DNA from: Owenia fusiformis | Lineage: Eukaryota > Annelida > Polychaeta > Sabellida > Oweniidae | Direction: 5' to 3' | Length of the DNA: 64,000 nucleotides | Assembly (NCBI GenBank): GCA_903813345.2 | Contig: CAIIXF020000012.1 | Span: 28,532,684 to 28,596,683 of the forward strand | Shown: positions 234 through 62,042 of the stretch, in pieces | How the letters are laid out: each line of letters opens with the position of its first letter | Position numbering within the stretch: the stretch's first letter is position 1 | Position numbers and translations under genes: made by a program | Notes under the pieces: generated by a model | Databases searched by the model: none | Seen by the model: only the letters and a program-made list of their open reading frames with translations | Told to the model about the DNA's origin: nothing

Positions 234-3200
234 TATGAGGACCAATCCACCAATGAGGCATCAAGTAAAGAGACTGGCGATGGTTTCCAGGCCTCCAAAG
301 CTCCTGTTTCTAAATCCCCACCCCCAGGCTTCAAAGCACCAGCGCCCCCAGGTTTCAAAGCTCCTGCCAGTAAAGCCCCACCCCCAGGATATAAAGGACC
401 CCCTCCTCCGGGATTTAAGGGACCGCCTCCCCCTGGATTTAAAGGTCCACCCCCTCCAGGTTACAAAGGGGATGAACCAGCTGCCAAAAAGCTTAAAGGT
501 AAAATTGATCTTTATACAGGGTGACCCCAAAAAATGTAAATGCATCACTGTTTCATGCCTTGAACATGCCATATTTAGCATGGACAGTGCCTAGTATGAG
601 TCAAAAAAGAGCACACTGTAATTAAGAATGCTATTCCAAAAAAGAATATTGCAATTTTGAACAACCCTGTATTATGCATTAAACTATTTTTGAAAAAATG
701 AAATGTCTGCCTTCAAAGTTTCTAACCAAATTGTACATGTTCGAATAAATGAATATTATAATGATAATATATGTAATATGTCAGTTTCACGACATTCATT
801 TTATTTTTTTAGTTGTAACAACCCACACATCCTACTACAACTGTACAAAGCCAAATTGGTTACAAGTAGAATATTATGGAGTCGTTTCTTTTCAAATCAT
901 TGAAATATATATACAGTAATGTCTCAACCCCCCCCACCCCCCACCCCCCTGCTAATATTAGTGAATTAATGTATGAACATTTGTTCCTTACAATCACTTT
1001 TTGCTTTTCAGAAGATACTCACGAAAGCAGTTCTACCAAAGCTGAGGATCCTGGGAAAAACAATGCTGCCCATGACCCTAGCGACCACAACAAAGATCTG
1101 ACAGTCTTCGTTAGCAACCTTGGTTATGACATCACAGTTGATAAGATACGGGAAAAATTTACGCAAGTAAGAGCATTTTAATTGGGGAATCAGAAATATA
1201 AATAATAATTTTGAACCTAGCCAAATTGATACATGAAACTGCAAGTTGAGCCAACTTAATGGATATGTGTTGTTATATAACCAATAAAGTACAAAAAATT
1301 TTTTAAAAAACGTCCCGAACTTAGAGAGTTAATATCTCAGAAACTATAAATAGTATATAAGTGAAACTTTCAGTATTATAACTTCATCCTATTGCCTCTC
1401 AGACCTGAAAGTTTCAATGCAGTACCTTTAGTATTAACAACGATATATGTATATCAAACAGAATTCTTTTTTGCACAGCAATGCTACACATTTTTGGCAC
1501 ATATTATTATGTCACATATTGCTATAATTTCAAACCTTTTTGTGGACAGTGTTTGGCATTTAGCATCTGTAACAAATGTTAGGTAGTGACATTTTGCATG
1601 TTAATACTTTCTAAATGATCTTGTGGTGTCTTCCAGGTCGGTGATCTCAGTGATATAAGACTGGTGAAAGACTACAAGGGGCGCTCTAAAGGCTTTTGCT
1701 ATGTAGAGTTCAAACAATTTGTAAGTACATGAAATAGTACATAATCTATAGTGTTCATATAAGACTGGTGAAAGACTACAAGGGGCGCTCTAAAGGCTTT
1801 TGCTATGTAGAGTTCAAACAATTTGTAAGTACATGAAATAGTACATAATCTATAGTGTTCATATAAGACTGGTGAAAGACTACAAAGGGCGCTCTAAAGG
1901 CTTTTGCTATGTAGAGTTCAAACAATTTGTAAGTACATGAAATAGTACATAATCTATAGTGTTCATATAAGACTGGTGAAAGACTACAAAGGGCGCTCTA
2001 TAGGCTTTTGCTATGTAGAGTTCAAACAATTTGTAAGTACATGTAATAGTACATAGAGTATAGTGTTCATATAAGACTGGTGAAAGACTACAAAGGGCGC
2101 TCTATAGGCTTTTGCTATGTAGAGTTCAAACAATTTGTAAGTACATGTAATAGTACATAGAGTATAGTGTTCATATAAGACTGGTGAAAGACTACAAAGG
2201 GCGCTCTATAGGCTTTTGCTATGTAGAGTTCAAACAATTTGTAAGTACATGTAATAGTACATAATCTATAGTGTTCATATAAGACTGGTGAAAGACTACA
2301 AAGGGCGCTCTATAGGCTTTTGCTATGTAGAGTTCAAACAATTTGTAAGTACATGTAATAGTACATAATCTATAGTGTTCATATAAGACTGGTGAAAGAC
2401 TACAAAGGGCGCTCTATAGGCTTTTGCTATGTAGAGTTCAAACAATTTGTAAGTACATGTAATAGTACATAATCTATAGTGTTCATATAAGACTGGTGAA
2501 AGACTACAAAGGGCGCTCTATAGGCTTTTGCTATGTAGAGTTCAAACAATTTGTAAGTACATGTAATAGTACATAGAGTATAGTGTTCATATAAGACTGG
2601 TGAAAGACTACAAAGGGCGCTCTATAGGCTTTTGCTATGTAGAGTTCAAACAATTTGTAAGTACATGTAATAGTACATAATCTATAGTGTTCATATAAGA
2701 CTGGTGAAAGACTACAAAGGGCGCTCTATAGGCTTTTGCTATGTAGAGTTCAAACAATTTGTAAGTACATGTAATAGTACATAGAGTATAGTGTTCATAT
2801 AAGACTGGTGAAAGACTACAAAGGGCGCTCTATAGGCTTTTGCTATGTAGAGTTCAAACAATTTGTAAGTACATGTAATAGTACATAATCTATAGTGTTC
2901 ATATAAGACTGGTGAAAGACTACAAAGGGCGCTCTAAAGGCTTTTGCTATGTAGAGTTCAAACAATTTGTAAGTACATGAAATAGTACATAATCTATAGT
3001 GTTCATATAAGACTGGTGAAAGACTACAAAGGGCGCTCTATAGGCTTTTGCTATGTAGAGTTCAAACAATTTGTAAGTACATGTAATAGTACATAGAGTA
3101 TAGTGTTCATATAAGACTGGTGAAAGACTACAAAGGGCGCTCTATAGGCTTTTGCTATGTAGAGTTCAAACAATTTGTAAGTACATGTAATAGTACATAG

Positions 3201-6200
3201 AGTATAGTGTTCATATAAGACTGGTGAAAGACTACAAAGGGCGCTCTATAGGCTTTTGCTATGTAGAGTTCAAACAATTTGTAAGTACATGTAATAGTAC
3301 ATAATCTATAGTGTTCATATAAGACTGGTGAAAGACTACAAAGGGCGCTCTATAGGCTTTTGCTATGTAGAGTTCAAACAATTTGTAAGTACATGTAATA
3401 GTACATAGAGTATAGTGTTCATATAAGACTGGTGAAAGACTACAAAGGGCGCTCTATAGGCTTTTGCTATGTAGAGTTCAAACAATTTGTAAGTACATGT
3501 AATAGTACATAATCTATAGTGTTCATATAAGACTGGTGAAAGACTACAAAGGGCGCTCTAAAGGCTTTTGCTATGTAGAGTTCAAACAATTTGTAAGTAC
3601 ATGAAATAGTACATAATCTATAGTGTTCATATAAGACTGGTGAAAGACTACAAAGGGCGCTCTATAGGCTTTTGCTATGTAGAGTTCAAACAATTTGTAA
3701 GTACATGTAATAGTACATAGAGTATAGTGTTCATATAAGACTGGTGAAAGACTACAAAGGGCGCTCTATAGGCTTTTGCTATGTAGAGTTCAAACAATTT
3801 GTAAGTACATGTAATAGTACATAGAGTATAGTGTTCATATAAGACTGGTGAAAGACTACAAAGGGCGCTCTATAGGCTTTTGCTATGTAGAGTTCAAACA
3901 ATTTGTAAGTACATGTAATAGTACATAATCTATAGTGTTCATATAAGACTGGTGAAAGACTACAAAGGGCGCTCTATAGGCTTTTGCTATGTAGAGTTCA
4001 AACAATTTGTAAGTACATGTAATAGTACATAGAGTATAGTGTTCATATAAGACTGGTGAAAGACTACAAAGGGCGCTCTATAGGCTTTTGCTATGTAGAG
4101 TTCAAACAATTTGTAAGTACATGTAATAGTACATAATCTATAGTGTTCATATAAGACTGGTGAAAGACTACAAAGGGCGCTCTATAGGCTTTTGCTATGT
4201 AGAGTTCAAACAATTTGTAAGTACATGTAATAGTACATAATCTATAGTGTTCATATAAGACTGGTGAAAGACTACAAAGGGCGCTCTATAGGCTTTTGCT
4301 ATGTAGAGTTCAAACAATTTGTAAGTACATGTAATAGTACATAGAGTATAGTGTTCATATAAGACTGGTGAAAGACTACAAAGGGCGCTCTATAGGCTTT
4401 TGCTATGTAGAGTTCAAACAATTTGTAAGTACATGTAATAGTACATAGAGTATAGTGTTCATATAAGACTGGTGAAAGACTACAAAGGGCGCTCTAAAGG
4501 CTTTTGCTATGTAGAGTTCAAACAATTTGTAAGTACATGTAATAGTACATAGAGTATAGTGTTCATATAAGACTGGTGAAAGACTACAAAGGGCGCTCTA
4601 TAGGCTTTTGCTATGTAGAGTTCAAACAATTTGTAAGTACATGTAATAGTACATAGAGTATAGTGTTCATAATGGAGTGTTCATTATGAGATGCACTCAC
4701 ATTCTGATTCTGTGACATTGGCCTCGACAGATTATCTAAAAAGCACTTGAGATAGAACAAACATAGTGTGTAGTTTCCGTTTGCGATGTATTCAATATTT
4801 GAGATTTGCTACCATTCCGATTCTAATAACATTTGACTTGACAGCATATCTAGAATTCAAATGAAAAAATGCCCTCGTTTTAGATTACGCAGTTTTGCAG
4901 ATGTAGTTTCCATCTCTATTTTAAGAGTTTGGCTGATATAGTTCTCTCCTTCGTTGTATGTACTTGCTGATTGGAGTATAAAGGTATAAGGAATATAAAT
5001 GTAATTAGGTCCCTGGAAAAAAAACATTTGTGAGGGGAACAGTAATCCTTGGTGGTCAATATATTTATAAATATATTTATTCCAGGCATCTGTAGCTGAA
5101 GCGTTGAAGCTGGATCGGCAACCCATAGATGGAAGACCAATGTTTGTATCTCCATTCCAGAAAGATAATAGAAATAAACTCAAGGTGAGATTCATGTTAT
5201 TGATATTAGATTCATGATCCATTCTTTGGATTGTCAAAGTTTGATTGTCAGTATTTAAAGAGGTTCTAACTCCCAACACATGTTTAGCTATCACAGCCCA
5301 ATCATTCAGAAACTTCTGTTCAAATCATTTTTTCTCAAAGAATATTTATTTTACTATCTTTTCTTTTAAAAGGACATCTTTCAATACTTTTCAAAGATTA
5401 AAAATGCCTGATGTTCTTTTATAGTTTGACACAGGACTTGAGAGGAACAAGCTATTTGTGAAAAATCTGCCAAACACTACAACTAAAGAAGCATTAGAGA
5501 ATATATTTAAACAGGTGAGTAGGGCTATGTAGTACTATTGCATTGGATTATTGTATATACTTACACTCCCTTCAAAAGTTTGACAAAATTGCGTACATCT
5601 ATGTACGAGAACACTCCCCTTCAAAAGTTTGACAAAATTGCATACACTTTTGTACACTCCCCTTCAAAAGTTTGACAAAATTGCATAAACTTATGTACAC
5701 TCCCTTTCAACAGTATGACAAAATTGCATACACCTATGTACACTCCCTTCAAAAGTTTGACAAAATTGCATACACCTATGTACACTCCCCTTCAAAAGTT
5801 TGACAAAATTGCATACAACTATGTACACTCCCCTTCAAAAGTTTGACAAAATTGCATACAACTATGTACACTCCCCTTCAAAAGTTCGGTTAAATCGTAT
5901 TGATGTTTGAAATTCTTTTTTTCTGTCATCAGTGATTTCCAAATATAATATAAACACACTTCAATGCATGGTCCAGTGGTGGAGTCGGTGTTGCCAAATC
6001 TTATACAGGGGGTGTAGAATTATTTTTTCATATACATATATTAAGAGATTCTCTGTAATATTCATCTTAAATAACCGTTGTACAATTTTTTTAATTCATA
6101 ATAAATAAAGTTTTTGAAAACTGAAAAAAGCTAGTAATTTTACAGAACTTGTTATGATCCATACAAGTGAAAATAATTGAAAAGATATGTTTCATATATT

Positions 6201-9606: not shown

Positions 9607-9644
9607 TAGAATTGATTGTTGATTGTATCAAGGAGCAAAAGTCT

Positions 9645-10012: not shown

Positions 10013-10020
10013 TAGGTGTC

Positions 10021-11386: not shown

Positions 11387-13318
11387 TTAAATAGGGGGAG
11401 CCTGGTATCCGAACATTTTAAAGTCATTTCCATATTTTAGGTACAGTTTGTGAAAATCCTTCAACATAATACTGTGGTATCCCTCCGTTAATTTAGACCT
11501 AGATTTAACTTTTGAGACACCAGTTTTCGTCTGTCCAAAATGTACTTTGTCCCTCCAGCCTATTTTCTCAAGGATGTAGTTTGAATCTTCAAGTAACGTT
11601 TCATATTTCAGGACGTATTGATATTTAACGTGACAGGGATGACACAATTGCTGAACCGATCTCCAGTGTTCATCCAACCAATCATGATGGAAATCCCGAT
11701 CGAGGAGATATCTTACGAATTCATTAAAAGTGACATCACAAGAGCGTTCATAATTCCCTACAGTGCTGTCGTTATCAGTATTGTTGTCTTTGAGGTTATC
11801 ATAGTAACTAGGAATTTTGCTCAACTCGTTATTTCTGTATTTCTTAATTATATTCTTCCCGTAGGTATCACAATACCAATCTCGTCCAGCAACGTGAGGA
11901 TGCTCCTGAAATTTATTCCTCCAGGCGGACAATATACGCTCATAGGGATCACGTACGATTAAAAACGTGGTATACGTTCCGAATATCTCCTTTAGTTTGT
12001 CTTGTGGTACGAACGCGGGCGTTTTGAGAATTATGTTGAGGTACGTCTCTAGTTTGAAATAGTAATCGTTCACCTCTTGCCATGTCTTGTTCAAATGCAC
12101 CTTCAGCATTAACTTCCTCCAGCTCGTTGACGCCACCTTTGGCACCATGCAATAGACAAATTTATTTTCTTCATCGATGTATATTTTGTCCGATTTTTTG
12201 TACATTACTTCATTAAATGTGAGATCTAATGTGCTCGGGTCTCTGTATGTGATATCGCAGATTTTAGAGAGCGTCATACGGCGGTTTTTGAATCTTTTCT
12301 CGATGTTTTTCACTTCGTTGCTGTTTGTTGTCTTGGTGAAATAGTCCCGAAGGTAAGCTCCTTTGTTCGTTCTGTATGGGTCAAAGGGCTGAAATTAAAG
12401 AAAACATGCAATCAGGACAATTATGTACGAGGCAATAACATGCAAAATGTCACCACCTGCAATTTCTTACAACAAGGTACCGCCGGGCGCCGAATGCTGT
12501 CACAAAAAGTTAGATAAAAATTGTTTTGTTGACATAAAAAATGGGCTCTTCTTTATAAGAGCATATGAAGTGTAACTAACAATGAGTCAGATCAGGTGAA
12601 ACACTCCCATCAGTAAATTTTACAGAAATATATACATTCAGACATTTTATGATGAAAATAAAAACAATGAATCATTTTATTTTATTTTCATGTCACCAGT
12701 AGAAGTGATGACATGTTGTTATAGTCTCAAATTTTTGTGGACGGTGTTCTGTGGTTGGTATTCGGCGGTTGGTGCTCGGCTGTCGGCGTCTGTAACAAAT
12801 GGTCAGGTGGTGACATTTTGCATGTTAATGCCTTGTTCTCTAGGCTACGTCCCTGGAGCATGTCAGTATGAGCCAATACACCTAATCTCCTTTGCTTCGA
12901 TGAAAAAACTAGGATTTATTGACAACGTTCACGTTTAAAAGCAATAAGTTAATCCAGTTTTTTTGGAAATATTGCATCACATTAAGTAGGCTTTGATTAA
13001 TTGAATATAGGACAATTGATTTTCAATTACTTTTTCCAATATACACTTCAATTTTCCTCCATCTAATTCAATTAATCATTTGTGCGTTGTAAATCATTCT
13101 GATACTCAGACCATCTCTACAATGCACAAGAGAAGGAAACCGAGAGAAGGCTGTGATATCTCACGATGGTTGTAAATATGTATGTACGAGTATTTTAGCC
13201 TTACCTTGAACAGCACGAAGACAAGAGTATTAATGGTAACCATGACAACGAGTAATGGCCACACTGATCGCACCCTGCAGGGCCTTGTCAGGAGTAAATA
13301 TAGTATTTTTCCAATCAT
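11387..13318 (-). CDS. Golgi carbohydrate sulfotransferase (HNK-1ST / CHST8-14 type)
   Basis: Two coding exons, 13205-13318 (ATG at 13318) and 11387-12388 (stop TAA at 11387-11389), joined in phase 0 by a GT-AG intron; the product is 371 aa. Exon 1 encodes a short cytosolic tail and one hydrophobic helix (about residues 19-37, WPLLVVMVTINTLVFVLF), the type II anchor usual for Golgi glycan sulfotransferases. Exon 2 carries the PAPS-binding motifs: the 5'-phosphosulfate loop MVPKVASTSWR and the 3'-phosphate motif VRDPYERILSAWRNKF. The typical C-terminal segment QLCHPCHVKYQYVLKYETL follows. Members transfer sulfate from PAPS to GalNAc, GlcA or related sugars of glycans. Which substrate this one uses cannot be told. 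Length and motifs look complete, and no defect is seen. The gene stands alone. Confidence 0.93.
12434..12517 (-). repeat. Dispersed GGTGGTGACA repeat, copy 2 (partial)
   Basis: It contains AACATGCAAAATGTCACCAC, the complement of the family's 3' terminus, and a degenerate internal part ending CACAAAAAGTT. It lies in the sulfotransferase intron, in the same sense as that gene. Confidence 0.7.
12688..12833 (+). repeat. Dispersed GGTGGTGACA repeat, copy 3 (near full length)
   Basis: It begins with ATGTCACCAGTAGAAGTGAT, a short palindromic head, and then has GTTATAGTCTC and TTTTTGTGGACGGTGTTCTG. A run of GTTGGTATTCGGCGG-like sub-repeats follows, and it ends GGTGGTGACATTTTGCATG. It lies in the sulfotransferase intron, opposite to that gene's sense; this is the only antisense intragenic copy in the window. 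Confidence 0.8.
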
Positions 13319-15345: not shown

Positions 15346-16349
15346 TGATGCCGGACACCATCCCTGTAGTCTATCTACATCTTAAAAGTCAGTGAAATCT
15401 CCATTGTGCATCTGTTTATTTTAGCTTACTCATGTATTATTTACATGATGGTGGTACATGGTATTGGCTGATTAAGGTGAAGTCGTGCTTGTGATGCCAT
15501 GTCGACTCAATCCAATTGTCTCCCGTAGGAGACGACTCCCACCTCTATACTGCCCACACCCTGCTATTGACCTAGCCTTGACCCGTCTCCTTGTTATGGC
15601 GCCTCTTCTACCCCCACCCCACTCCCATTTTCTTTCTTGCATTTTATTTTCCTTCATACCCCCTACTTATTACCCGATTCACCTCCTTGTTAGCTTTTAC
15701 CTTTCTCCTTTTTTACATTTCCTGAATGAAGCTGTTTCCCATATAGTCCACTCACGTCACTCACTCATACATGTACATGATCTTTATGTACATGCTCTTT
15801 ATGTACAGCCACTGTCCACACCAACCTGCGTAGTACATAAGGAAGGTGAATTATATTATTGAAAGGGCTGTCATTAAGAGGCAATATATAACACTTACAC
15901 CCTTTGCAATGTGTCAATGTCAAGCCAGAGGGGTTAAATCGATCGATAATATGTTTGAGTAGCTTTTTCAATAGTTTGATTCTCTTAAAAAATATATCTG
16001 ATGCAGAAATATCCAAAGTCACTTGAATTGATAAAGATGTCAACTTTTTTTCCAGTGAAATTACTGAACTGCCATAGTTCATTGAAACTGAATAAATGTT
16101 ATTAGTGAACTCCCATAGCACAGTTTAGTCCACTGAAAATAGTGAATACATTTAAATGTCTAAACTCACACTGTGTCGAAACACATTTTAGTCTATTGGA
16201 AATACTAAATACCTTTAAATTAATAACTCCTGTAAGAACTGGTGCCTTTATACGTCTACTGTATAGTTTTAGTACAAAGTACATAACTACCTAATGGAAA
16301 TAAGCAAAAAATTATAATAAATAGACTTTACGTATAATAAACCATAACA
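15346..16349. other. Intergenic DNA, no gene seen
   Basis: A pyrimidine-rich stretch at 15480-15720 opens a 125-codon plus-strand frame with no recognisable domain. Base composition alone explains it. The rest is AT-rich with no recognised feature. Confidence 0.4.
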
Positions 16350-16729
16350 TAGCATTAACATGCAAAATGTCACCACCTACCATTTGTTACAGATACCGAA
16401 TGCCAACTGTCAAATGCGACTGCCATCCTCAAAAAAAGTTGGAGACTTTAACAATATTTTCTACTTCAGGTGGTGACAAGGCATTAACATGCAAAATGTC
16501 ACCACCTCCCATTTGTTACAGATACCGAATGTCAACTGTCAAATGCTGACTGCCATCCACAAAAAAGTTGGAGACTATAACAATATGTCACCACTTCAGG
16601 TGGTAACAAGGCATTAACATGCAAAATGTCACCACATGTCATTTGTTACAGATGCCAACCACTGAACGCACTATCCAAGAAACATTGGAGACTTTAACAA
16701 TATGCCACCACTTCTGGTGGTGACATAAT
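16350..16729 (-). repeat. Three tandem copies of the dispersed GGTGGTGACA repeat
   Basis: Three consecutive units (about 16350-16470, 16480-16600, 16610-16729) each contain GCATTAACATGCAAAATGTC, a CATTTGTTACAGAT core, and AGTTGGAGAC or CATTGGAGAC. The last ends with CCACCACTTCTGGTGGTGACA, the palindromic head of the family seen from the other strand. The locus is intergenic. Confidence 0.8.
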
Positions 16730-16739
16730 AAAAATAAAA

Positions 16740-34500: not shown

Positions 34501-37500
34501 ATATGAGGTAATCAGTGATCACAAAATATGTGACATTAATTTACAAATTTTAATTTAATTTGCTAGCATCAGTCTGACCTTGCGAATTTCAGTACTGAAC
34601 ATTTTGAAATTCAGAGCACATAAAGGACAGTGTTTTGCTGGCTACTAAATTCATTCCTACTTGAAACTTTATATCTAATATTTACATTCTACTTTACATA
34701 CTATAAAAACCATGACGATTCCCTGGAATGAAAATACATTGATTTTTCACAGGTTTCATGGATTACTTGAATCAAACTCATAATTCCTTGTATTTGAGCC
34801 TACTAAAAGTCAATACTACATCACTTATTTTGACTTCTTATCTTTTTTATTTTCTACGTTATGTTTAATAACCTCAGTGACATGTTATTATATTCAAGAG
34901 TATTTGTTTTTCTCTACATACCTAAAAATCTGGTGAAGAATGGGAAAAATGACTGATTATTCAAAAACATTTTTCGAGATTCTTCACTCACTCCCACTCT
35001 AGTTCAGTCCATTTCTCCCAGTAGCCAAGTCATCACTACATTTGAACTCCAATAACCTTTCATAAGTACCACACACAGAGATGTCACATATCAATTTTCA
35101 TTCAAAACTAGGTCTAACTTACCTGTGAGAGGTATTTATGATTTAAATACTTGGACTTTGAAAGTTTTTCATCAGCGAGACAATATTATCAATAAATGTA
35201 CATGTTCTCCCATCAAAATATTTCACCCCTCTCCCGACTATTTTCGCAATTTTCTCATCAAATTATTCCTATGGGTCGAAACTCAGATATTTCTGTGAAT
35301 CTAAAACAAAACTTGATCCTGAAAAACTTAATCGTTCAACAACAACCTATGTTTTTCCATTATTTCTATACGCTAAAAAATGACTTTGAAACAATTTATG
35401 TACAAGATATATACTGTGTGTACTGGATATCTGCCTAATATACCTGCGTCAATTGACATATCTCTACACGGGTAATCATATAATTTATGTATATTTGAAC
35501 ACTAGGTAGCTAAAATATACCAGGCAAACTAAATATATTTTATGAAGTCTTTCATCGAGCTCATGTGCCCCCCTTCCTTGTGACACCCCCCCCCCATATC
35601 TTACGTCACAATGAGGTGCTGTAAATAAAGGCAGGAGGTCTTAAACTTGATGTTGACTATTTTATGAACTTAAGTGTTAAAAAACACTTAGTAGTATGCA
35701 AAGAAAAGATGATCACCATATGTTGACTGGCACACCTCCAAAATGTGTGAGAAATAAAGACTGGGTAACAGGCGATGGCCAGTATTAAAAAAAAAAAAAA
35801 TTCACCAGACAAACAGACTCCCTTGGCTTGCTACAGGCCTGCTAATAATGCCATGAAGTTGAATGCTAAGCTCCTATACATAAACTTAAGTGATGAAAAA
35901 ACTGACAATCTATAAAAAAAAACATGGCCAACCGATTTTGAATTTTTTCAACTGAGGCAGTTACCTAAAAGGGATCAAGTCTGACATAAATGTGACTTCA
36001 CTTTCCCAATGATTTCTATCAGACATGTTAGAAGCAAGAGCCCCCCCCCTTTATTCCCCCATAATTAGACCCCCCCCTTCATTCAACCATAATAAGAGCA
36101 CCCCCTCCTTCATTCAACCATAGTAAGACCCCCTTCATTCAACCATAATAAGACCCCCCTTCATTCAACCATAATAAGACCCCCCTTCATTCAACCATAA
36201 TAAGACCCCCCTTCATTCAACCATAATAAGATCTCCCTTCATTCAACCATAATAAGACCCCCCTTCATTCAACCACAATAAGACCCCCCTTCATTCAACC
36301 ATAATAAGACCCCTCCTTCATTCAACCATAGTAAGACCCCCCCTTCATTCAATCATAATAAAACCCCCCTTCATTCAACCATAAGACCCCCCTTCATTCA
36401 ACCATAATAAGACCCCCCTTCATTCAACCATAATAAGACCCCCCCTTCATTCAACCATAATAAGACCCCCCTTCATTCAACCATAATAAGACCCCCCTTC
36501 ATTCAACCATAATAAGACCCCCCTTAATTCAACCATAAAAAGACCCCCCCTTCATTCAACCATAATAAGATCCCCCCTTCATTCAACCATAATAAGATCC
36601 CCCTTCACTCAACCATAATAAGACCCCCCCTTAATTCAACCATAATAAGACCCCCCCCTTCATTAAACCATAATAAGACCCCCCTTCATTCAACCATAAT
36701 AAGACCCCCTCTTCATTCAACCATAATAAGACCCTCCTTCACACAACCATAAAAAGATCCCACCTTCATTCAACCATAATAAGACCCCGCCCCCCTTCAT
36801 TCAACCATAATAAGACCCCCTTCATTCAACTATAATAAGACCCCCCTCTTTATTCCTCCATAATAACAGCCCACCCCTCCATTCCTCAATAATAAGAGGG
36901 TAAAACATTTGTCTGTGAAAACTTCTTTGTTCAGATACCTTGAACTATGAATATTTTTCGTAAATTACATGGCCTATTGACTCCCAAGTTAACAGGGCCT
37001 CTTAAATATGAATATCTGGCATTTATTTCATTTTGCATATGCATATGGAAGTCTTTTAAACTATTCTACATTATGGAAATCTCAAAAGAGAGTATACACT
37101 CATACAGTTTGTCAAATGAAATTTACCTATTCAGTTACAATTCATTGTAACATTACAATATTTTCATTTCCCCCATGATTATTGTGTTATCTGTACAATA
37201 ACACCAGTGATATTTCTGATATTATAGATATCCATGTGATATTTTTCAGAAAATCTGATATCCTTTATCAGGTGCACTATTGATTCATATTATAAATAAA
37301 TTTGAGACTTTTTTGATATTTGATTGTTATCATGGGATATACCCAATATCAGATCACTTCTCATCATATCATTTTATGCCTCATAGATCAAGTAAAAAAG
37401 TGTGGATAAAAATGATATCCTTCAAAATGATCTGATATTCTATATATCTACATTGTATTATCCATAGCCTGTACAATACCTTAAAACATACACATTCCTC

Positions 37501-40500: not shown

Positions 40501-43500
40501 AAGGGAATCCGCGCCAACCTGGGAAGTATAGGCATCATATATAAACACTGCTAAATAGTTCCAAATCAACACATGTGTTGAAATGAACACCTGTAGTAAT
40601 GATCACTTGTTGTGATGAATACTTCTACTTATGAACACTCACTGAAATGAACACTTCTAATTACAAAAATATGAGAGCTCCAATATCACTTATATGTATA
40701 ATCCAAACTCATCCTTCACTCATTCCTTCACTCTAATATTAAGTAGAAGCCCTTAATATTGTCTCAAGGCCTTCAGTATTGTCTAGAGGCCCTCAGTATT
40801 GTCTAGATGCCCTCAGTATTATCTAAAGGCTCTCATTATTGTCCAAAGTCCTTCAAAATTGTCTAGAAGACCTAAATGTAATCTAGAAGCCCTTAGTATT
40901 ATCGAGAAGCCCTAAAAGTTTGTTGAAGCCCTCAATATTTCCTAGAAGCCCTCAAATTTTCTCATTTTATGACAATTCACAAATGTAGATTCCTTCCTTG
41001 CTTATCCATTTGTACATGTATCACAGTATTGCTTTCATGTTCAATAATTTTCTCCAGCTAGGGGATTGACACTAGACATATTCCACCCATTTATTGTTGT
41101 ATTACCCTTTTCCAGAGATTATGTCTTTAGAAAGAGTGTCATTTGTATAGTAGTAACTACAACCTCAGGGTATTCCGTCCAAAATTGTAAATTATCTAAT
41201 ATACTCACAAGACAAAAATTCAAATTTATTAAGGTGCATTCAGTATCTCAACCCGGTGTCGAAATCAAGCAAACGTTTTATCAATCTTTGGACCTTATAG
41301 ATACCCTACCAAACATTTAACACAAAGTTTGAGTTTTTCCTTAAAAAAAACATGGAATGAGTTGAAACAATATGGAATACAAAAATTGAAATGAAGTAAG
41401 AAACATGGCTTATTGTTGTAAATGAGAAACTTCAATCATTTGATGAATTCTTTTAGAATTATTGTAAAATGTATTTTGAAGACGATGGAATATTTTGCCT
41501 TAACCTCTTATGTTATAAGATTATGTACATGTCACATGTATGATTTGTATGACCCCCTCAACCTTATCAGAAATGATAAATGAATTTCTTAAACAGAGAT
41601 AAACCAAATCATCAATGAAAAAATAATTTGAATAAGAGAAATGGTTGATTTTCTTAAACTGTTCATCTTCGTTTCCTACCACCAAGATAGCATGTAATCC
41701 CAAAATACTGAAAATGCTTAAACGCAACCATAATTTAGAATTTCTCTCATAGACAATAAAACTCAGAAAAGGACTGTAGGTTAAGTTAACTTTAACAAGG
41801 ACAGTAACCCCATCATGCAAAATGTATTTAGACCCCTAGTTGTTCATCAAGTATTTGAGCCTCTTCCCCCTCCCATCTACACGTGGTATGAGGGTCATAC
41901 ATGTTTGAAGCAAGACTACAAGACCCCTGGTAATATGCATCTTCCCTGTTTTGTAAAATCAAGATCTTATTCTCAGGCATGAAGCCTGCTTTTGCCAAGG
42001 GGTTCACCTTTCAAAAAATTCCAGGGGGTTCACATTGGACACCTTTGGCTCAAAATCACTTAAAAAAAACTCAGAATGGTAAAAAACTGTATGATTTTGA
42101 AAGAATTTTGGGCAAAAGGCGGTTCACTCCACCAATCTTGGACAGACTCTAGAATTTTAAGTATCAGAGTAAATGAATTAGGTCATCTTCCACAGAAGCA
42201 AATCAAATGGTTGGAGACTGGAGATAGGTATATGAGAATTGAGACCTATCAGGGCAAAGGATGGCCACTCCTACCCCACTTATCTCTCTTATCATATGCT
42301 TACATTATCAATATATCACATGTAAAAGCCTGGTTCTATATATAGTCCAAAAGTAAAACCTTTCAAAGTGAATTGCTCTTATTTGCATAGGTGAGAATCA
42401 AACACTGGACATTATTAATGTTTTTAAGAATTTGATAGAGAGGCAGAACTCTAAAATCAAAATGCTGAGAACTAGACCATGGCAAATGTAAGAGATACTG
42501 ATCCATGTCCTGTAAATGAGAGGTTCTGCGCTAAAATGGGGAGACATTTTTGTCAGAACAAGGGGTGAAATCGGCCCCCTAAAAGTGCAACCCCATCATT
42601 ATGTACATTGTGTATATGAAATACATGTTCCTTTACCAAGTGCCTTTAAATGTGACAACTTGACATCCCTTCATGATTCGCTATACCATACTGAGAATAT
42701 ATCCAAATATGGGCATCATAAGTCAATTGCCGGCAAGGCAAACCGCAATACTGTATTTTCAAGGTCAATAATTGTGTTCAGTATGAATGAAGTGTTGTGA
42801 AGTACTACAACTTAGTCTATACCCTGGGTTTATTGTAATAAATAATACTCTCTGATAAGGTTCAATTACTTTATACTTTGGGAGTTCAAAGGGTACTTGA
42901 GCACTTATAGGTCACACAGTAAATTATAATTAAACTGAAGAGGCACACATCATTGATAAAGAACAAGGTATTAACATGCAAAATATCATCACCACCTGCC
43001 ATTTGTTACAGGCACCAACCACCATTAGTTACAGACGCCAATCACCAACCGCCAAACACCATCAGCAAAAAATGTTAGAGACTATAACAATTTGTCACCA
43101 CTTCTGGTGGTGGTGACATGAACATTTTATTACATAGAGTTCTTTTATAAGAGTTCTTAATAAATACTGAAGTCCATCATACAGATTTTTTGAAAGGGCC
43201 TCAGAAAATAACCAACTAACGAGCCAGCCAAACAACCAATCAACAAGCCAACTAAACAACCAACAAAACAATCTATTTTACAAACAAATATGTACTGGAC
43301 TATATAACTAATGTTCCATAAAGTACAACAGGTTAACAAGTGGAGGGTTCACATTTTAGATTTATTTAACACAAGCACATAACAACAACTGCCGACATCA
43401 CTCAGAGGGGGAAGATGGTAATTGCAAACCAATGTATAAGAGCTTCTAAAAAGCTTTATTAAGAAGCATAGCTTATGAACACTGTAAAGAAGTCAGCCCC

Positions 43501-46500: not shown

Positions 46501-49500
46501 AGATCAGACTTCTTTTATTAAGAAATCTGGAACAAATCATAATATATGAAGTTGGGGAAATATATACATGCACAAATAAGGGGGACTAGATGCTTGTAAG
46601 CTTTTCTATCAAGTGTTTTATCAGCAAAAGGTAACAATATTATCACTAGTTGAGGGGGCGTGTCAGCAACAGGTAACAATATTATCACTAGTTGAGGGGG
46701 CGTGTCAGCAACAGGTAACAATATTATCACTAGTTGAGGGGGCGTGTCAGCAACAGGTAACAATATTGTCACTAGTTGAGGGGGCATGTCAGCAACAGGT
46801 AACAATATTGTCACTAGTTGAGGGGGCGTGTCAGCAACAGATAAAAATATTTTCACTTGTTGAGGGGCGTGTCAGCAACAGGTATCAAAATAGTCACTAG
46901 TTGAGGGGGGCGTGTCAGTATATCACCAATCAGAGGTCTTGTTACCAGCAGGCATTTTTCATTGGTTATTTTAACGAAAATTCCCTGCGGCTGTGTGGTA
47001 TTTTACAACTGTTATGTCCTTTACTTCCAACAATTTTACCTGTTGTTTCAATTTTGCCTGTTGCCAAAAATTCTGATGAAACCAATGTTTGATATAATTA
47101 AAGATTGTGAATGAAATCAAACTTAGGTTTCAAGCTTGTATGGACCTTTTCGTCACCCTATCCAAACACATCTTGGAATTCAAAAGTCTGAAGTTGAAAA
47201 TCAAACTTAAATGTGAACATAATCTAAACATAGTATTCTGCAATACACCTCTCTTTACAAACTGACCTTCAGGATTAAAATCAACATACCAATATTTGAT
47301 TCCATTTCAAAAGATTCAACAGACTTGAATGCTCAGTATTACTTTTATTTGCATTCGTACTTGTAGCTTCATGTAATTCCTTTATGACTCTAGCATTAGA
47401 GCAGTTGGTCAGAACCCTTTTCAATATCATATATAGTGAGATTTCTCTTCTTTAAAAGGGAGCAGGGGTCCAGGTATAAGCCTGAAGGGTAATTTATACT
47501 CTGTAAATAAGAGACAATCTAGCCTTAGAGGTATAGGTTTAACCCCTAAACAGGTTTCAATCTTTGTCAAACATACATTCTGGGAAAATTGAGAGACAAG
47601 TCTTGCCTCGACTCCACACTTATGGAACCCCTCAACCATCTACTTCTCCTAATGGAGGAAGCCCTTTAGCCAGGCCAGGTGGAAGTTTCTGGCCAAAAAA
47701 TTATTTAAAAACTTTCAAGTTGTTTTAGGCCAAAGTTGTCAAAATCTTCCTGTAATTTTTGGAAAAGTGAACCCCCCTTCCCTTGACAAAAGTTACTTAA
47801 GGGCCTGGCAGGTGAGTGGACTGTAGATGTGAAATGAATGGGGTTACAAGAAAAGGATGTGACTAATGAGAATTGCATTCCATATATCATGACATCAGGA
47901 CCTCATTTTCAATACAATACAGACAGTATTGATTTCAGCTGGATTCGTTAATAACAACTCAGTTTATTTTGTCCAGCACAGCGGTTGATTTGAGGTCTAC
48001 CACATAGCATGATATTGGATTTGAAAAAACAAATTGGCAGGAAAGGCAGTTTTTATGCAGTAAACAAGTTGTTTATTCAAAGCACAATGTACATGCATTA
48101 AATAGATTGGTTTAAAGGGTACGCTGTGTGATAAGGTCACCCAATGTGATATGGCTACCCCTGTATGATAAAGGTATACTATATGATAACTTTACCCTGT
48201 ACGATAAGGCTACTCTTCCTGATAATGCTACCCTGAGATATACTATGATATATGACTACCCTGCATGATAAGCCTATGTACACTATATGTGAAAAGATTA
48301 TTTGATAAGAATACCTTGTATGCACAATGGTAAGGACTGCATGATACACTATGTATGATAATACTGTAGGGATAAGGGTATAATATGGTTATCCTGGCAT
48401 ATCCTGCATGATCAAGCTACCATACCAGTTTTCTCCAGTGGGTACAAAATTCCCATTTTCATAATTACGACCACAATTGGTGAAAATATGCCAATTTTTC
48501 ATGATTTTTCTCATTTTCAAGTGAGTGCAAATGGATTTTCGGGTCTTTTTTGAAATCTCAGGTGGGTGCTGCACCCACTTGCTTTAATGCTGGGGAAATC
48601 ACTGCATACATTGCTATGTCAAAATGAAAATGTAAATAAGGTAGTTCCACATGAATGTTACTTTTGAGATCAGTTCTGAATTTTTTTTTTTCAAAGGCAC
48701 AACTTTTTCATCAACATTTACAGTTTAACTAAAATCTACTGTTATCAGTAAAAACAAATATTAACTGGATTAGCTGTTTGTGGACATTTTTGATAGTCTC
48801 ATTTGATTTTTGAGTGGGGCTATATTTGAGTGGGGCTATATATAAGTGGGGCTATACTTGACAACAGGTACATATTTCACCTAGGCCACTCCTTAAAATG
48901 ATTTCAATTAATGATCAAAAACAAAAAAACACTAATCTCCATATTTCAATTCTACTTAACAACTGTTTCTTTCAGTGTTCCTCTCAGGATTTTCCTCAAG
49001 TTGGTGCCAATTTTCAGTCTCAAAATTTGACCAAAGGTCCATGTGCAAAAAACAAAAAAACACTAATCTCCATATTTCAATTCTACTTAACAAATGTTTC
49101 TTTCAGTGTTCCTCTCAGGATTTTTCCTCAATATGGTGGTTTTTCAGTATCAAAATTTGACCCGATTGCATCAAATTTTAATTGGGTGAAAATGGTACAT
49201 TTTCAAATCCTTAAGTGGGAGCAGTGCTTGCTTCAATACGAGGGAGATGATTGAACAAACTTCAAGTGAACAGAGTAATAGTGTAATCCCTTATAGGGAT
49301 GGGAGGGAACCAAAGAATTTCTGAACAACAGAACAAAAAATCAACTGACCTTTACTTGCTGTTTTCTTCTTCTTTTTCTTCTTTTTGTTGGGGTCTGTTG
49401 CCATGCCAAGCTCCAGGGGATTCCCTGTTGCTATAGGTTCACCTTGGGGAAGGTTTGGCACATCTTTGGTGATAGGCTTGTCATAAATATCATTAACTCT

Positions 49501-52500
49501 CTGCTGAATGGCCTGCATATGATGGTCTTTCCCAGATGGAAACGGTGGATTGTTTACCTCCTTTATATTAGGCACAATTGTCTTCTCGATACGTACACTA
49601 TCACTGGAAGTTGAGCTAGGCATTCTGGAAGATGGATCGCCATAGCGACGCTGGTTAATGTAAGCATTTGTTTGGTTGAGAGGAAATGTAACTGCAGTAT
49701 CAACATCCGGGTTGCCGGAACGATTAGACAAATTTTTGTTGAGCGAATTATGATTTATCCTAGGGATGCTATAATTTTTTTTACTGAACGAGATCTCCTG
49801 GTCTGATGACAATTTGGGGCCAGTCAGTTTCATTGGACCATTAGACTTAACAGGTCTATCTTCATCAAATTCATAATCCTCTCCCTCCTCTGTCTGCATA
49901 TGGGCATAATCATTATGTTTCCCATAGAGACGATCATGAACATTGACACTTTTTAGGTCATCATCAGAGTCCTCTATATTAAGCACCTCATCATATGTAT
50001 TATTTGTTACTCGAAAAGTTTTCATTTCTGTCGATCTGGGGCCATCACTCATGGACCTAGAAGTCCTAAAATCATGGTCAGATGATATGGATCGTGGGGA
50101 ATCATCAACAGGTATCTCTTCATCAGCGTTAAATCCAACGTCATAAGCCTTATCATGTGAGTTGACAATATGTGTGTTGCTAGAGCGAATTTCAACAGGC
50201 CTCTTATTTACATATCCTGCTCTATTATACATGACTGGTTTTTCATCCTCTGGCGTCTCCTTTGTTGACGGGAAATAATCAAACACTCCACGTTGCTCAT
50301 TCTCATCAATATCCAAATCAGCATCACTAGCGCTACCTATTGTAGTCTTACTAGAGTTACACACACCCGAATCAACACTCATATCTGACCACTTACGACT
50401 CATGTTTCTTGACGTGCGTTCTAGAGATTTTAAAGACACTTTAGGTGAAGTAGCTCCACCTGAATCTTCGTCATCATCAATATATTTTATCCCACTTAGA
50501 TCGCTGTGATCAGTCAAGCTGTTGGTAGTCATATTATTGCTAGTCACGCTGTTACTAATATCACTTGTTGTATCCCGTATATCAGATCGTGACTGTGATT
50601 CAACAGGGTTCACTTTATTGTCACCAGGTGTCACTGGTGCACTCCTAGCGAGACTATAATCTCGAGCGTTTGAGACAAGATGGTTGAAGTCTTTTTCGGG
50701 TAACTCTGATATCTTTCTCGCCTCGTCTTTAATGAGGTCAACCTGGAAAATGAAAATGAAAGTAATCTTCAATCAAGTCAAATTTCAAAATGTTTGAGCA
50801 TTGCCCAAGATATGATATTTTGATATGATTCATTTCAGGCTGTTTTATTTCATATTTTAACATATAATGGCATTTAAAAACAAGGCATTAATGATAAAAT
50901 GTCACCACCTTGTAAGTTTTTGCAAAATATTACAGATGGATGAACTCTGAATGCCAAACACCATCAACACAAAATTGGAGAATATGTCACCACAAACACA
51001 ATATAACATATAAAAAAAATAGAAAATTATCATTTTTCTTACTTTTAAAACCACTAATGAAACAGTTGTGAAATACACTAAAACATTATTTTATGAATAT
51101 ATCATCAAAGGAGGTACATAGATATAACAGTAAACACTTGGGTTCATATTCACTTGCCCTTGGCCAAGACAGGCTTAACTGACTCTAATAAAGATAGTAA
51201 AATGAAAGCATCATGGGTACTCCAGGTGACGTACATAAAAATTGGGTCAAACACCTAAAATAATGTCCTATCACCTCCCACGCTAATGCATCTGTAAAAA
51301 AGCTAAGTATCAGCTTTTATTTATCCAATTCAAGAGAACTGTGAAAGACATACAGAATTTTCAAAAATTGTGACAGTGACACCTAATTATCTAAAACCAA
51401 TACCTTGATGATATGTAATTTCATTGTACAATGCATATAATAATAAAGCATTCACATGCAAAATGTCACAACCTGCCATTTGTTACAGATGCGAATTCCG
51501 AACACTGTCCACAAAAAGTTGGAGACAAAAACAAGATGCCACCACTTGTGGTGACATAAGTGGTGACATAAAAAGCATTTACCCCCACTCTAATCACTCC
51601 AAACTCATATAAAATATGCTTACATATACAGTATAAAACACAAACACCTCTCTAATCTGAACACCTTTCAATATTGAACACCCTTTCTCAGTCATAATTT
51701 TCCAATTGACTCACATATAAAATCCTGAAAGTGAACACTTGCTTTTTCCCTGTCCTAGAAGCATAATCTGAGTAAACAAGTTTTATAGTACATGAAGATC
51801 ACCCTGACCCATGTATATTATACACCAAAACAATTCAAGACTTATCCCAATAATATAAATACATGTTCAGTATATGTGAACTGTTCTACCTTCTTATTCC
51901 TTTTCAATCATATAAATACATGTTCAGTACATGTGTACTACTAAAGGTCAAATGCAGAAATTATTACACGTTTAACCTAAATATGCCTCATATTCTATTC
52001 ATTTTGCCTCACCTATTAATAAAGGCTATTAATTTTGCCTCACCTATTAATAAAGGCTATTAATTTTGCCTTACCTATTAATATAGGCTATTCATTTTGC
52101 CTCATCGATTAATACAGGCTATCAATTTTGCCTTCCCTTATTTTAGGTTCTAGATACACCCTGCATGTTTGCCTCGAACAGAATACAAACCTAGAAAAAT
52201 AAATGAATATCTTTCAGATACCCAACACATCCTGATATACCCTTGCCAATTGTCCGATTTCACTTATATGTTAGATTTATTAATTTGTCTGTCCTAATCA
52301 TAGCCTAATAACTAAACTCTTTACCTCAGGGTATTAATACATGTATTTCAGTAATTTTTCAATTGCAACATCCGAGAAATGAGTTGACACATCTGAGATC
52401 ATGATGACTTTACACAAACTGCAGCATTTCTAGCATTGATTCATATATACCTATATATGTAATAATGAATAATATGTATTCTGTAGATCTAATTTACATT

Positions 52501-57562: not shown

Positions 57563-57688
57563 TTTTGAGTTTCGGCCATCTTGAATAATTTAGCGTTGTC
57601 AGGCCAGTTTAGCCTCGAACCAAAATCTTTTGACTTTCAAACAGGAAGTGAAGAAGTAAAAATTTACCTGTCCGTTTTGCCACTGTTC
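57563..57688. promoter_or_regulatory. Bidirectional promoter region between the large gene and CDIPT
   Basis: Only 126 bp separate the two start codons of the head-to-head genes. The stretch has an ETS/GABP-type site ACAGGAAGTG (57641-57650) and a YY1-type site GCCATCTTG (57575-57583; CAAGATGGC on the minus strand). Both are typical of TATA-less shared promoters. No TATA box stands out. The minus-strand YY1 site contains an ATG that opens an eight-codon upstream frame overlapping the main start. Confidence 0.7.
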
Positions 57689-60676
57689 ATGGCCAATATG
57701 ACAGACAACGTTTACCTGTTCGTACCCAATCTCATTGGTTAGTGATTAGACTATATACTCATACTTTCCAGTTGAACAGATTTTGTCAAATTGTCTTTTT
57801 TTTAGGCTTTGGAAATTTTTACTTTCCAGATTTATTTTCATGCAGATTTTTCAGTTTTCAGCTCAGAATAAAGCTGGAAGGCTAGGCCTTGATCTACCTG
57901 TATTGAGAGCAACATGATCGACCTGAAACTAAGCTACTGAGATATTGTATTGAATCAGTTGTGAGCAGTGTCTTTGATATTGTGTGACCGTCCTCTTGAT
58001 TCACAGGCATCGGAGCAGATATTAGAGTTCTCCTGACCCCCCCCCCGCTCTCTGTGTATAGATATAATAATATTTTTATATGCTTGGTACACAGAGTTTG
58101 GGGGTAGGTATTTCTTACGATACCTGTGATTCGAAGGCTCGATCATAAATTTCCATTTATGACAGTGTACATGAATAGAAACATTCTTGCGGAGAAATGA
58201 AAAGTATTCAAAATCTAATAGTCTGCTATTTATGCATTTCACGTATTGAATACTCGATTAAACTTTTTTCTCTGCCTGATCCTGGTGTAATGACCCTTGA
58301 TAGAAAGTCACAACTTGCTACTAGTCTCTAGACTTCAACATGTCCCTAGTCCTACTATCCTACCTACCTACCTAGTCTAGGTGCGGTAGAGTGTCCGACT
58401 TGTGAGCAGAGGGTCCTGGGTTCGATTCCCGCATTGGGCATTGAATTTAAGTACACTCCCTTTTGGTTCTGGTATTTACAATTAACTTGTTACACTCGGC
58501 TTCCCAGATGAGTGTGCTCAGGGTCGATACACTCATAGGCCTATGCAGAGGATATTGCAAGTGTTATGTTTTTTCAAGACGTTAGACATGACATGCATGA
58601 ATCTCAGAAACTGTTTTTTCTTTCAGGGTATGCCAGGATTGTCCTCGCCCTAGTGTCATTCTACTTTATGCCAACAGACTATGTAACCGCTACATGGTGC
58701 TATCTTCTCAGTGGCCTCCTAGATGCTTTTGATGGACATGCAGCTAGGATGCTTAATCAAGGTGGGAATCAAGGTTTATAGATTGGGAAATAAGTTTTTA
58801 TGTCTACAATTGGTGGTGACACATTGTTATAGTCCTCAACCTTTTTGTGGATGGTGTTAGGTTGTCAACATTCGCCAGTCAGCATCTATAACAAATGGCA
58901 GGTGGTGACATTTTTCATGTTTATGCCTTTTTATTGTTATACAAGTACGAACACAGTCAATAGATAGTGCTTGATTCAAAAGGATTTTGTATTTTGCCAC
59001 ATGACATCACATTTATCCATTGGGGCTAAAATAAACAAGTTTGAATAAGTTAAATAGTTAAAAGAACCTGTTAATTCCTATAATCTCACATTTTTAATTT
59101 TAACGATAGACCACTTAGTCCACCACAGCAACACCTATATTCCCTGACCTGCTATGTTTCTAGGGCCAATTTATGATTTGTAACATTTGGAAAATCTAGT
59201 TAATAAACCACAAGTACCTTGTCTTCCTCCAAACGCAAGGCTCCAGAGATCATTCACTCTCTGAAGAAAAAGAGTAGATGATGTCTGGAGTCCAGTGTTT
59301 AGAGTATGATACTAAACATGCACTAACTTAACCTGCATTTTCTTTATTAATAGGAACAAAATTTGGTGCTATGTTAGACCAGCTGACAGACCGATGTGCC
59401 ACCATGTGTCTGCTTGTGGTACTTTCCTGTTTCTACCCCCAATATATGATTCTATTCCAAATCAGCATGATCATTGATATTGTGGCCCATTGGATGCATT
59501 TACACAGGTGAGTGGGTGCTCAGGCTCGACATATCCCAGCGCTTGGTAAAAAATTTTGCTGCGGGATAAAGTGATTTCAGAACTACACTAATGCCTGATC
59601 AAAAAATATGCTATCAAGCCATCACATAATTACCATACTATATTACCCTTGCAAAAAATTTCATTTTTCATGTCCTTTTTGAAGATCAAAGTATATGCTA
59701 TCAAGCAATCATACATCTCTATGTCAGGGGAGGCGGCTGGACAAGGATTATTTCAAAAGCATACGGTTTTTCACCATTTTGTGTAGTTTTCAAGTGATTT
59801 TGGGCCAAAACTCTAAAAATTGAACTCCACCTATATTTTAAAAAATTGAACCTTCCTTTGGCAAAAACTGACTAAGGGCCTGTTGGTTGTGCAGGATCTA
59901 ATGTTATATCCCCATTATTATTCCTAAAATAAACAGGTAATTTTGGTGAAAACAGGCAGTTTGGTTCCAACTGCAAATGGAACCCAATGCTTTTTTTATG
60001 TCACCATCAGCAGTGATGACATATTGTTATGGTCTCCAACTTTTTTGTGGGCAGTGTTTGGTGGTTGGTGTTCAGTGGTCGATGTCCAGCAGTTGGTGTT
60101 CGGCATCTGTAACAAATGTCAGGCAGTAACATTTTGCACGTTAGTGGCGTGTACATGTATTTTAGGGATAGAGGTGCAGCACCTACAGTTAATTCATGGC
60201 ACCAATGTTATATTAAAAACTAAAAATGCCAGGCTTTCACGGGTGTTTGAATATGGCATTTAAGCCATCTACTTATGGAGGTAAAAAATTCTGAATGGCC
60301 TAATAGGTCAGGTAATACTGGTTCATCAAATGATTATTCTAGAGACAATCTAAAAAAAACTGAAGAAAAAACATAAAAAATATCAAACAGAAGTTTTATA
60401 TATATTGTTATAGCATGCACATGTATAGTATCCAACTAAACACATTTTGAGGACAGTGTTTGGCATACAGTGGTTGGTTTTCAGTGGTCGGTGTCTGTAA
60501 AAAATGGCAGGTGGTGACATTTTGCATGTACATGCCTTTTTCTAAGACCTTGTAGTTCACATAATTAAACATTATGCCCCATTTCTGGTTTCAGTTCAGT
60601 AATGAGTGGATCTACTAGTCACAAGCAGATAGATCTTGCAGGAAATCCCATTCTACGTCACTATTACACTAATAGG
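57689..60676 (+). CDS. CDIPT: Phosphatidylinositol synthase (CDIPT), 5' part; 3' end off-window
   Basis: Four exons with GT-AG borders: 57689-57737, 58627-58761, 59354-59507, 60595-60676. Their phases (1, 1, 2, 0) give one continuous frame of 140 codons. The start at 57689 gives MANMTDNVYLFVPNLIG, close to vertebrate CDIPT. The CDP-alcohol phosphotransferase signature D-x2-DG-x2-AR-x8-G-x3-D-x3-D is complete (DAFDGHAAR, then G and the two D of GAMLDQLTD), and the HLHSSVMSGSTSHK segment is family-typical. The enzyme joins CDP-diacylglycerol and myo-inositol to make phosphatidylinositol in the ER membrane, the base of all phosphoinositides. The C-terminal third (expected CAGNELFY-type segment) is not seen up to 64000. 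Its exon 4 seeds the 80-bp array that follows. Confidence 0.95.
58376..58530 (+). mobile_element. tRNA-derived SINE-like element in CDIPT intron 1
   Basis: TAGGTGCGGTAGAGTG is an A-box-like sequence, and GGGTTCGATTCCCGC, 37 bp on, is a perfect B box. A non-tRNA tail follows (ACACTCGGCTTCCCAGATGA). The anticodon arm does not pair, so this is not a functional tRNA gene. Confidence 0.65.
58801..58928 (+). repeat. Dispersed GGTGGTGACA repeat in CDIPT intron 2
   Basis: It runs from GGTGGTGACACATTGTTATA through CAACCTTTTTGTGGATGGTG to GGCAGGTGGTGACATTTTTC. Sense with the gene. Confidence 0.8.
59727..59890 (+). repeat. Dispersed GCCAAGG-type repeat in CDIPT intron 3
   Basis: Contains CAAGTGATTTTGGGCCAAAA and CTTTGGCAAAAACTGACTAA then GGGCCTG, which match the family at 33780, 41985 and 47665 with much divergence. 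Confidence 0.5.
59999..60147 (+). repeat. Dispersed GGTGGTGACA repeat in CDIPT intron 3
   Basis: ATGTCACCATCAGCAGTGAT, TATTGTTATGGTCTCCAACT, then GGTTGGTGTTCAGTGG sub-repeats and CATCTGTAACAAATGTCAGG. Near full length, sense with the gene. Confidence 0.8.
60408..60541 (+). repeat. Dispersed GGTGGTGACA repeat just before CDIPT exon 4
   Basis: AGGACAGTGTTTGGCATACA, GGTTGGTTTTCAGTGGTCGG and GGCAGGTGGTGACATTTTGC. It ends about 50 bp before the acceptor at 60593-60594. Sense with the gene. Confidence 0.75.
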
Positions 60677-62042
60677 GTAAGTATGTTGTATAAGAGTGAA
60701 GCAAGCAGATAGATCTTGCAGGAAATCCCATTCTGTGTCACTATTACACTAATAGGGTAAGTATGTTGTATAAGAGTGAAGCAAGCAGATAGATCTTGCA
60801 GGAAATCCCATTCTATGTCACTATAACACTAATAGGGTAAGTATGTTGTATAAGAGTGAAGCAAGCAGATAGATCTTGCAGGAAATCCCATTCTACGTCA
60901 CTATTACACTAATAGGGTAAGTATGTTGTATAAGAGTAAAGCAAGCAGATATATCTTGCAGGAAATCCCATTCTGCGTCACTATTACACTAATAGGGTAA
61001 GTATTTTGTATAAGAGTGAAGCAAGCAGATAGATCTTGCAGGAAATCCCATTCTGCGTCACTATTACACTAATAGGGTAAGTATGTTGTATAAGAGTGAA
61101 GCAAGCAGATAGATCTTGCAGGAAATCCCATTCTGCGTCACTATTACACTAATAGGGTAAGTATTTTGTATAAGAGTGAAGCAAGCAGATAGATCTTGCA
61201 GGAAATCCCATTCTGCGTCACTATTACACTAATAGGGTAAGTATGTTGTATAAGAGTGAAGCAAGCAGATAGATCTTGCAGGAAATCCCATTCTGCGTCA
61301 TTATTACACTAATAGGGTAAGTATGTTGTATAAGAGTGAAGCAAGCAGATAGATCTTGCAGGAAATCCCATTCTATGTCACTATAACACTAATAGGGTAA
61401 GTATGTTGTATAAGAGTGAAGCAAGCAGATAGATCTTGCAGGAAATCCCATTCTGCGTCACTATTACACTAATAGGGTAAGTATTTTGTATAAGAGTGAA
61501 GCAAGCAGATAGATCTTGCAGGAAATCCCATTCTGCGTCAGTATTACACTAATAGGGTAAGTATGTTGTATAAGAGTGAAGCAAACAGGTAAATCTTGCA
61601 GGAAATCCCATTCTGCGTCACTATTACACTAATAGGGTAAGTATGTTGTATAAGAGTGAAGCAAGCAGATAGATCTTGCAGGAAATCCCATTCTGCGTCA
61701 TTATTACACTAATAGGGTAAGTATGTTGTATAAGAGTGAAGCAAGCAGATAGATCTTGCAGGAAATCCCATTCTATGTCACTATAACACTAATAGGGTAA
61801 GTATGTTGTATAAGAGTGAAGCAAGCAGATAGATCTTGCAGGAAATCCCATTCTATGTCACTATAACACTAATAGGGTAAGTATGTTGTATAAGAGTGAA
61901 GCAAGCAGATAGATCTTGCAGGAAATCCCATTCTGCTTCATTATAACACTAATAGGGTAAGTATGTTGTATAAGAGTGAAGCAAGCAGATAGATCTTGCA
62001 GGAAATCCCATTCTGCGTCACTATTACACTAATAGGGTAAGA
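60621..62042 (+). repeat. 18-copy, 80-bp exon-plus-5'-splice-site minisatellite in CDIPT
   Basis: A constant 80-bp period. Each unit holds the last 51-56 bp of exon 4 (CAGATAGATCTTGCAGGAAA to ACTAATAGG) followed by GTAAGTATGTTGTATAAGAG and TGAAGCAAG. Copy 1 is the end of the authentic exon. Copy 18 runs into unique intron at 62042, where its donor reads GTAAGATTTT. All earlier copies keep GTAAGT. The exonic part has 17 in-frame codons, and copies differ by a few substitutions (for example CGT to TGT, TAT to ATA/AAC context changes). Reading through the first donor gives a stop in the next unit. Confidence 0.97.

Follow-up and report, generated by a model that had tools for sequence, protein, structure and literature searches.

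Two minisatellites across exon–donor junctions of Owenia fusiformis and their likeness to the mirages of amphioxus

Minisatellites that lie across the edges of exons have been described in amphioxus under the name of 'mirages': they are found in Adh3 and in the globin genes BflGb6 and BflGb9, and also in troponin C and PGBD5 (PMC3902484). In the published accounts the repeat units measure 150–160 bp in the globins and 10–72 bp in Adh3, the arrays occur on donor as well as acceptor sides and show length instability, and regular splicing is undisturbed according to their authors. Here we describe two such arrays in a 64,000-nucleotide stretch of the annelid Owenia fusiformis (GCA_903813345.2, contig CAIIXF020000012.1, positions 28,532,684 to 28,596,683 of the forward strand; 'the window' below means this whole stretch). 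A first-pass annotation had presented them as an undescribed class; the amphioxus mirages, and a human minisatellite in IFI6, were already in print, the two arrays belong to the published kind and the claimed novelty fails.

Comparison with described systems

As in amphioxus, each unit spans an exon–intron boundary (68 exonic plus 36 intronic bp in array 1, 55 plus 25 bp in array 2), and an authentic, coding-intact junction stands at one edge of each array. The differences lie in copy number (29 and 18 copies here versus 6 and 3 in BflGb6), in the side, as both present arrays are on the donor side, and in the evidence, as they are known from DNA sequence alone.

Other systems share single features with these arrays. 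The minisatellite of human IFI6 (6-16) also repeats a splice donor (Turri 1995, cited in PMC4526556), but its downstream units serve as donors and give rise to several mRNAs, whereas here the later donors lead to stops: judged by reading frame, donors 2, 3, 4 and the last one are not usable for making protein. Intron gain by tandem duplication of AGGT segments (the Rogers model; ATP2A1; 24-bp arrays in fission yeast; PMC4974935) likewise starts from a duplication around a splice signal whose additional copies are spliced out. Array 1 differs in that its host intron has a separate acceptor at 5086, outside the array, and no new intron bounded by duplicated copies has been formed. Variable minisatellites, some of them at exon–intron boundaries, are known from genes in human segmental duplications (PMC2812944), where, unlike here, the repeats alter the exon/intron structure of recent paralogues, and an earthworm gene carries intronic minisatellites together with unexplained exon duplications (PMC12783039). 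No genome-wide count of donor versus acceptor arrays was found in the literature searched, among the matches listed.

Anatomy, reading frame and constraint of the two arrays

The two arrays have the top two Tandem Repeats Finder scores in the window (5653 and 2637; the third is 1214; 50 rows were returned, from which one row per place was chosen by hand, giving 34 arrays). Array 1 has a period of 104 bp, 29.0 copies and 98% matches; for array 2 the values are 80 bp, 17.8 copies and 96%. That they begin inside coding exons and cross the donor was confirmed: array 1 starts 16 bp into an 84-bp exon and array 2 starts 27 bp into an 82-bp exon. The annotation's estimate that they extend 30–40 bp past the donor is right for array 1 (36 bp) and too high for array 2 (25 bp). 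Coordinates are collected in Table 1; exon coordinates are from our own annotation and are accurate to a few bases, and the exon list of the long minus-strand gene of the window is incomplete.

Table 1. Positions in the window of the arrays, the exons that carry them and the copies of the F1 repeat
Feature	Positions	Strand	Remarks
F1 copy near array 1	1511..1627	+	stops some 10–20 bp short of the acceptor of its neighbouring exon, varying with the alignment
SART3 exon with array 1	1637..1720	+	part of RRM1, VGDLSDIRLVKDYKGRSKGFCYVEFKQF; last 68 bp are the exonic portion of array 1
Array 1	1653..4671	+	29 complete 104-bp units, each with 68 bp of exon and 36 bp of intron
First donor of array 1	1721..1726	+	GTAAGT, context TTT/GTAAGT
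Decayed two-copy tandem duplication	4680..4865	+	follows array 1 directly; the copies are spaced by about 110 bp
Next SART3 exon	5086..5184	+	acceptor outside array 1, 414 bp 3' of the array end
F1 copy near array 2	60387..60556	+	same orientation; stops some 40–50 bp short of the acceptor of its neighbouring exon, varying with the alignment
CDIPT-like exon with array 2	60595..60676	+	..SVMSGSTSHKQIDLAGNPILRHYYTNR; last 55 bp are the exonic portion of array 2
Array 2	60622..62041	+	17 complete 80-bp units, each with 55 bp of exon and 25 bp of intron, followed by a partial 18th
First donor of array 2	60677..60682	+	GTAAGT, context AGG/GTAAGT
Other F1 loci	12420-12546, 12673-12839, 16330-16739, 42957-43164, 51427-51559, 58795-58938, 59993-60152		

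The two host genes are unrelated and the arrays are 56 kb apart; the claim of one anatomy in two unrelated genes is borne out. The joined exons of the array 1 gene match the SART3 chains 2do4, 7xx9 and 7xx8 in PDB (1e-23 to 6e-16). PABP and nucleolin, both multi-RRM proteins, score higher in this search because they cover both RRMs. Pfam assigns two RRM domains, and Lsm_interact narrowly misses its cut-off (21.3 versus 21.4 bits); from these matches the gene reads as SART3. An exon of the same gene contains an in-frame 24-bp coding repeat (376-469, PPPPGFKG-like). The array 2 gene matches the Pfam family CDP-OH_P_transf (E=1.7e-16); we take its name to be CDIPT. A CDIPT-like composite had no match in PDB, and no exon following array 2 was recognised up to 63999.

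Only the first donor of each array leaves the reading frame open, among the donors tested (1, 2, 3, 4 and 29 in array 1; 1, 2, 3, 4 and 18 in array 2). Every later donor tested leads to stops, and donor 2 already meets five of them in array 1 and one in array 2: after a later donor of array 1 the stop is immediate (..KQFVST*), and in array 2 it falls inside one unit (..SEASR*). Neither unit length (104 or 80 bp) is divisible by three. Growth only into the intron, which had been read as the sign of a process, stands as an observation; it is forced by the frame, since units that are not multiples of three introduce stops.

Copy 1 is coding-intact and continues the open exon in both arrays. The exonic parts of the other copies differ from copy 1 by 12 distinct changes over both arrays, four synonymous and eight non-synonymous, and the synonymous share of all possible changes is 0.20–0.22. 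The peptide of copy 1 is encoded by six of 29 copies in array 1 and eight of 17 in array 2 (copy 1 counted), and 23 of the 29 array 1 copies replace the lysine of RSKGF, an RRM residue, by isoleucine. The later copies vary as sequence without coding constraint does.

GTAAGT was said to be kept in essentially every copy, and this is so: it is present in 29/29 copies of array 1 and in 17/17 full copies of array 2 (the partial copy 18 stops at GTAAG and is followed by different intron sequence; the hexamer there reads GTAAGA). One could take these 29 and 17 intact donors for a selected function, as decoys that bind U1 and either guard a long intron against premature polyadenylation or make it splice more slowly. 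It could not be shown, however, that the donor columns are better conserved than other parts of the unit: the 16 variable columns all lie outside the 18 donor columns, but this has P=0.18, and invariant hexamers are also found elsewhere (78 of 104 in the array 1 unit, 39 of 80 in that of array 2), so retention of GTAAGT is no evidence of selection and its invariance is what low divergence gives. The array 1 intron also lacks AATAAA and ATTAAA, both in 1721-4671 and in 4672-5085, and we regard a selected function as very unlikely.

Origin of the arrays

We think it probable that these are two independent mirage minisatellites at exon/donor junctions, tolerated since splicing takes the surplus copies out of the transcript. 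A short tandem duplication across the 3' edge of the exon would have arisen by chance in each gene, and would have survived if the splicing machinery picks the first (5'-most) donor and copy 2 falls in the intron. The intronic copies, relieved of coding constraint, could then multiply as minisatellites ordinarily do, through slippage, unequal exchange or conversion that may involve blocks of several units, with copy 1 staying as the working exon. The sequence itself shows the anatomy, the frame with its stops, the release from coding constraint and the block structure of array 1, whereas we infer that the first donor is used in vivo, how the initial duplication came about and that the later copies are neutral; first-donor use and tolerance would together therefore let the arrays grow only into the intron. 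Tolerance by splicing, which the first-pass annotation had named as one possible cause, fits the stops that later donors bring and the lack of coding constraint in later copies. The undisturbed regular splicing described for amphioxus mirages of like build also speaks for it.

Turnover is visible in the order of the units. Array 1 contains five distinct unit types (six variable columns), arranged as aabccdddcdcdbccdcdbccdcddccec, and array 2 contains 11 (10 variable columns). Array 1 has a higher-order periodicity of six units (624 bp): units six apart differ by a mean distance of 1.09 versus 2.32 overall, and a distance as low at any lag from 1 to 12 was obtained in 26 of 5000 shuffles. This likeness is the pattern that block duplication or exchange would give. 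It is a trait of the amphioxus mirages that edge copies escape homogenisation. Copies 1 and 2 of array 1 alone hold one base state and have others in common with few copies, so that the derived copies appear to have been those amplified; copy 1 of array 2 is a single base off the consensus, hence there is little such distinction in that array. The duplication that directly follows array 1 is older and degenerate (its score was reached by 0 of 300 shuffles). A relation between the units and their flanks is not clearly beyond chance on either side (score reached by 100/300 shuffles for array 1 and 19/300 for array 2 on the 3' sides, and by 207/300 and 261/300 on the 5' sides).

The long, ordered arrays also bear on whether they might be an artefact of assembly. 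Near-identical long arrays assemble poorly, and one published amphioxus mirage was misassembled in a draft, but several unit variants in a definite order and clean flanks speak for real arrays here; we consider an artefact very unlikely.

Two cases in 64 kb had been called hard to ascribe to chance. This is true for some classes of arrays and not for others, and whether there is an excess depends on the reference set chosen. All the values are post hoc: 34 arrays and 14 donors lead one to expect 0.26 units that span a donor, and P(≥2)=0.028; P is 0.11 when 14 donors and 16 acceptors are counted together, 0.17 if a generous 40 donors are assumed, and 0.001 for the four arrays with a period of at least 40 and at least five copies. 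In a survey of 29 junctions (14 donors and 15 acceptors; same strand, within 6 kb; an uncertain acceptor near 27460 was omitted), local copies were found at 2/14 donors and 0/15 acceptors. Hits at the acceptors 1637 and 60595 are arrays 1 and 2 themselves, reached through the exon, and no other duplication at an exon edge was found among these window junctions.

Several observations weigh against the explanation by chance duplication and tolerance. In the order of unit types, the longest stretch that recurs is by itself unremarkable (reached in 386/5000 shuffles for array 1 and 1612/5000 for array 2). The best acceptor-like AG of a unit has nine of 12 pyrimidines in array 1 and seven of 12 in array 2, and the window contains several true acceptors that do no better (7–10 of 11 pyrimidines), so the use of array copies as exons through cryptic acceptors would be compatible with the sequence. 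For some of the array classes above, two arrays seem more than chance alone would give. Finally, the arrayed donors are the only two of the 14 that read GTAAGT (the donor near 49344, for instance, reads AAG/GTCAGT), which plain neutrality does not predict; by a hand calculation, exactly these two would be drawn from 14 donors once in 91. This association is the one hint at something beyond plain tolerance, in that a strong first donor is perhaps needed to tolerate the duplication or promotes it. A simple reading by donor strength is disfavoured by the array 1 donor, with a poor exon side (TTT) and six of nine consensus matches.

The 2/14 versus 0/15 count and the exclusive GTAAGT donors are what would favour a process acting across the genome to amplify donor junctions specifically, possibly coupled to transcription (R-loops or U1 binding), with strong GTAAGT donors seeding the arrays. 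GTAAGT junctions would then be preferred seeds of minisatellites in this genome, a strong first donor tolerating or perhaps promoting duplication (by U1 or R-loops), and exon-edge arrays would be common, biased towards donors and still adding length to introns, perhaps beyond the cephalochordates as well; this wider proposal is an unlikely one on present evidence. The process itself we also hold to be unlikely: there are two cases, the chance P is up to 0.17 depending on the class of arrays, the amphioxus globins include an array on the acceptor side, evidence in that case against a process confined to donors, and skew and folding are unremarkable. The GC skew of the sense strand is modest (0.20 for the array 1 unit and 0.16 for that of array 2; plus-strand values of five other arrays in the window range from -0.81 to 0.28), and single strands of the units fold no better than shuffled ones (z of 0.33, -0.28, 0.05 and -0.09). 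Nothing in these results singles out R-loops or U1, and the suggested link to R-loops is not upheld.

An interspersed repeat family, which we call F1, has copies just 5' of both arrayed exons in the same orientation, and a nearby F1 repeat might destabilise an exon and trigger its duplication. The family has nine loci with 11 copies in the window, the fuller copies bearing the palindrome ATGTCACCACCAGAAGTGGTGACAT near one end. Four of the nine loci, two of which adjoin the arrayed exons, are no more than 60 bp away from an exon edge (P=0.0033 if placement is kept within each gap, 0.00015 if it is free; F1 ends are approximate, and the figures for 40 bp hinge on where they are set). The association is post hoc, however, and F1 is old (pairwise hits are 63–92% identical, versus 98% and 96% for the array units); F1 gives no hit inside either array, and no array is seen at two further F1-flanked exon edges (near 12388 and 58762). 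We give a trigger by F1 very little credence. At 16345-16739, three F1 copies stand head to tail; here an interspersed repeat has become a tandem array. The F1 core, searched as exact patterns, had 0 matches in viral and prokaryote contigs, the unit patterns of arrays 1 and 2 had 0 in viral contigs, and one F1 copy had no match in phages.

Other features of the window and significance

A 26-bp array of 30 copies (36044-36847) has an extreme strand asymmetry, with 312 C versus 33 G on the plus strand, and sits probably in an intron of the long minus-strand gene. This gene, presumed to be a single one, occupies 25517-57579 on the minus strand, with large exons at 50743-49345 and about 27454-25517; these two exons had no Pfam match at E 0.01. 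One exon of the minus-strand gene matched AceES-2 at E=0.01 and fell short of the cut-off. At 11387-12388 on the minus strand lies what is apparently the last exon of a sulfotransferase gene (Sulfotransfer_2, E=1.4e-43).

The two arrays exceed the amphioxus globin cases, as these are described, in size (29 and 18 copies). If our explanation holds, a duplication that would be fatal within an exon turns harmless when it crosses the donor, and may then inflate the intron by 1.4–3 kb. Were donors found to outnumber acceptors genome-wide, such arrays would offer a natural test of how one donor is chosen among dozens of identical ones.
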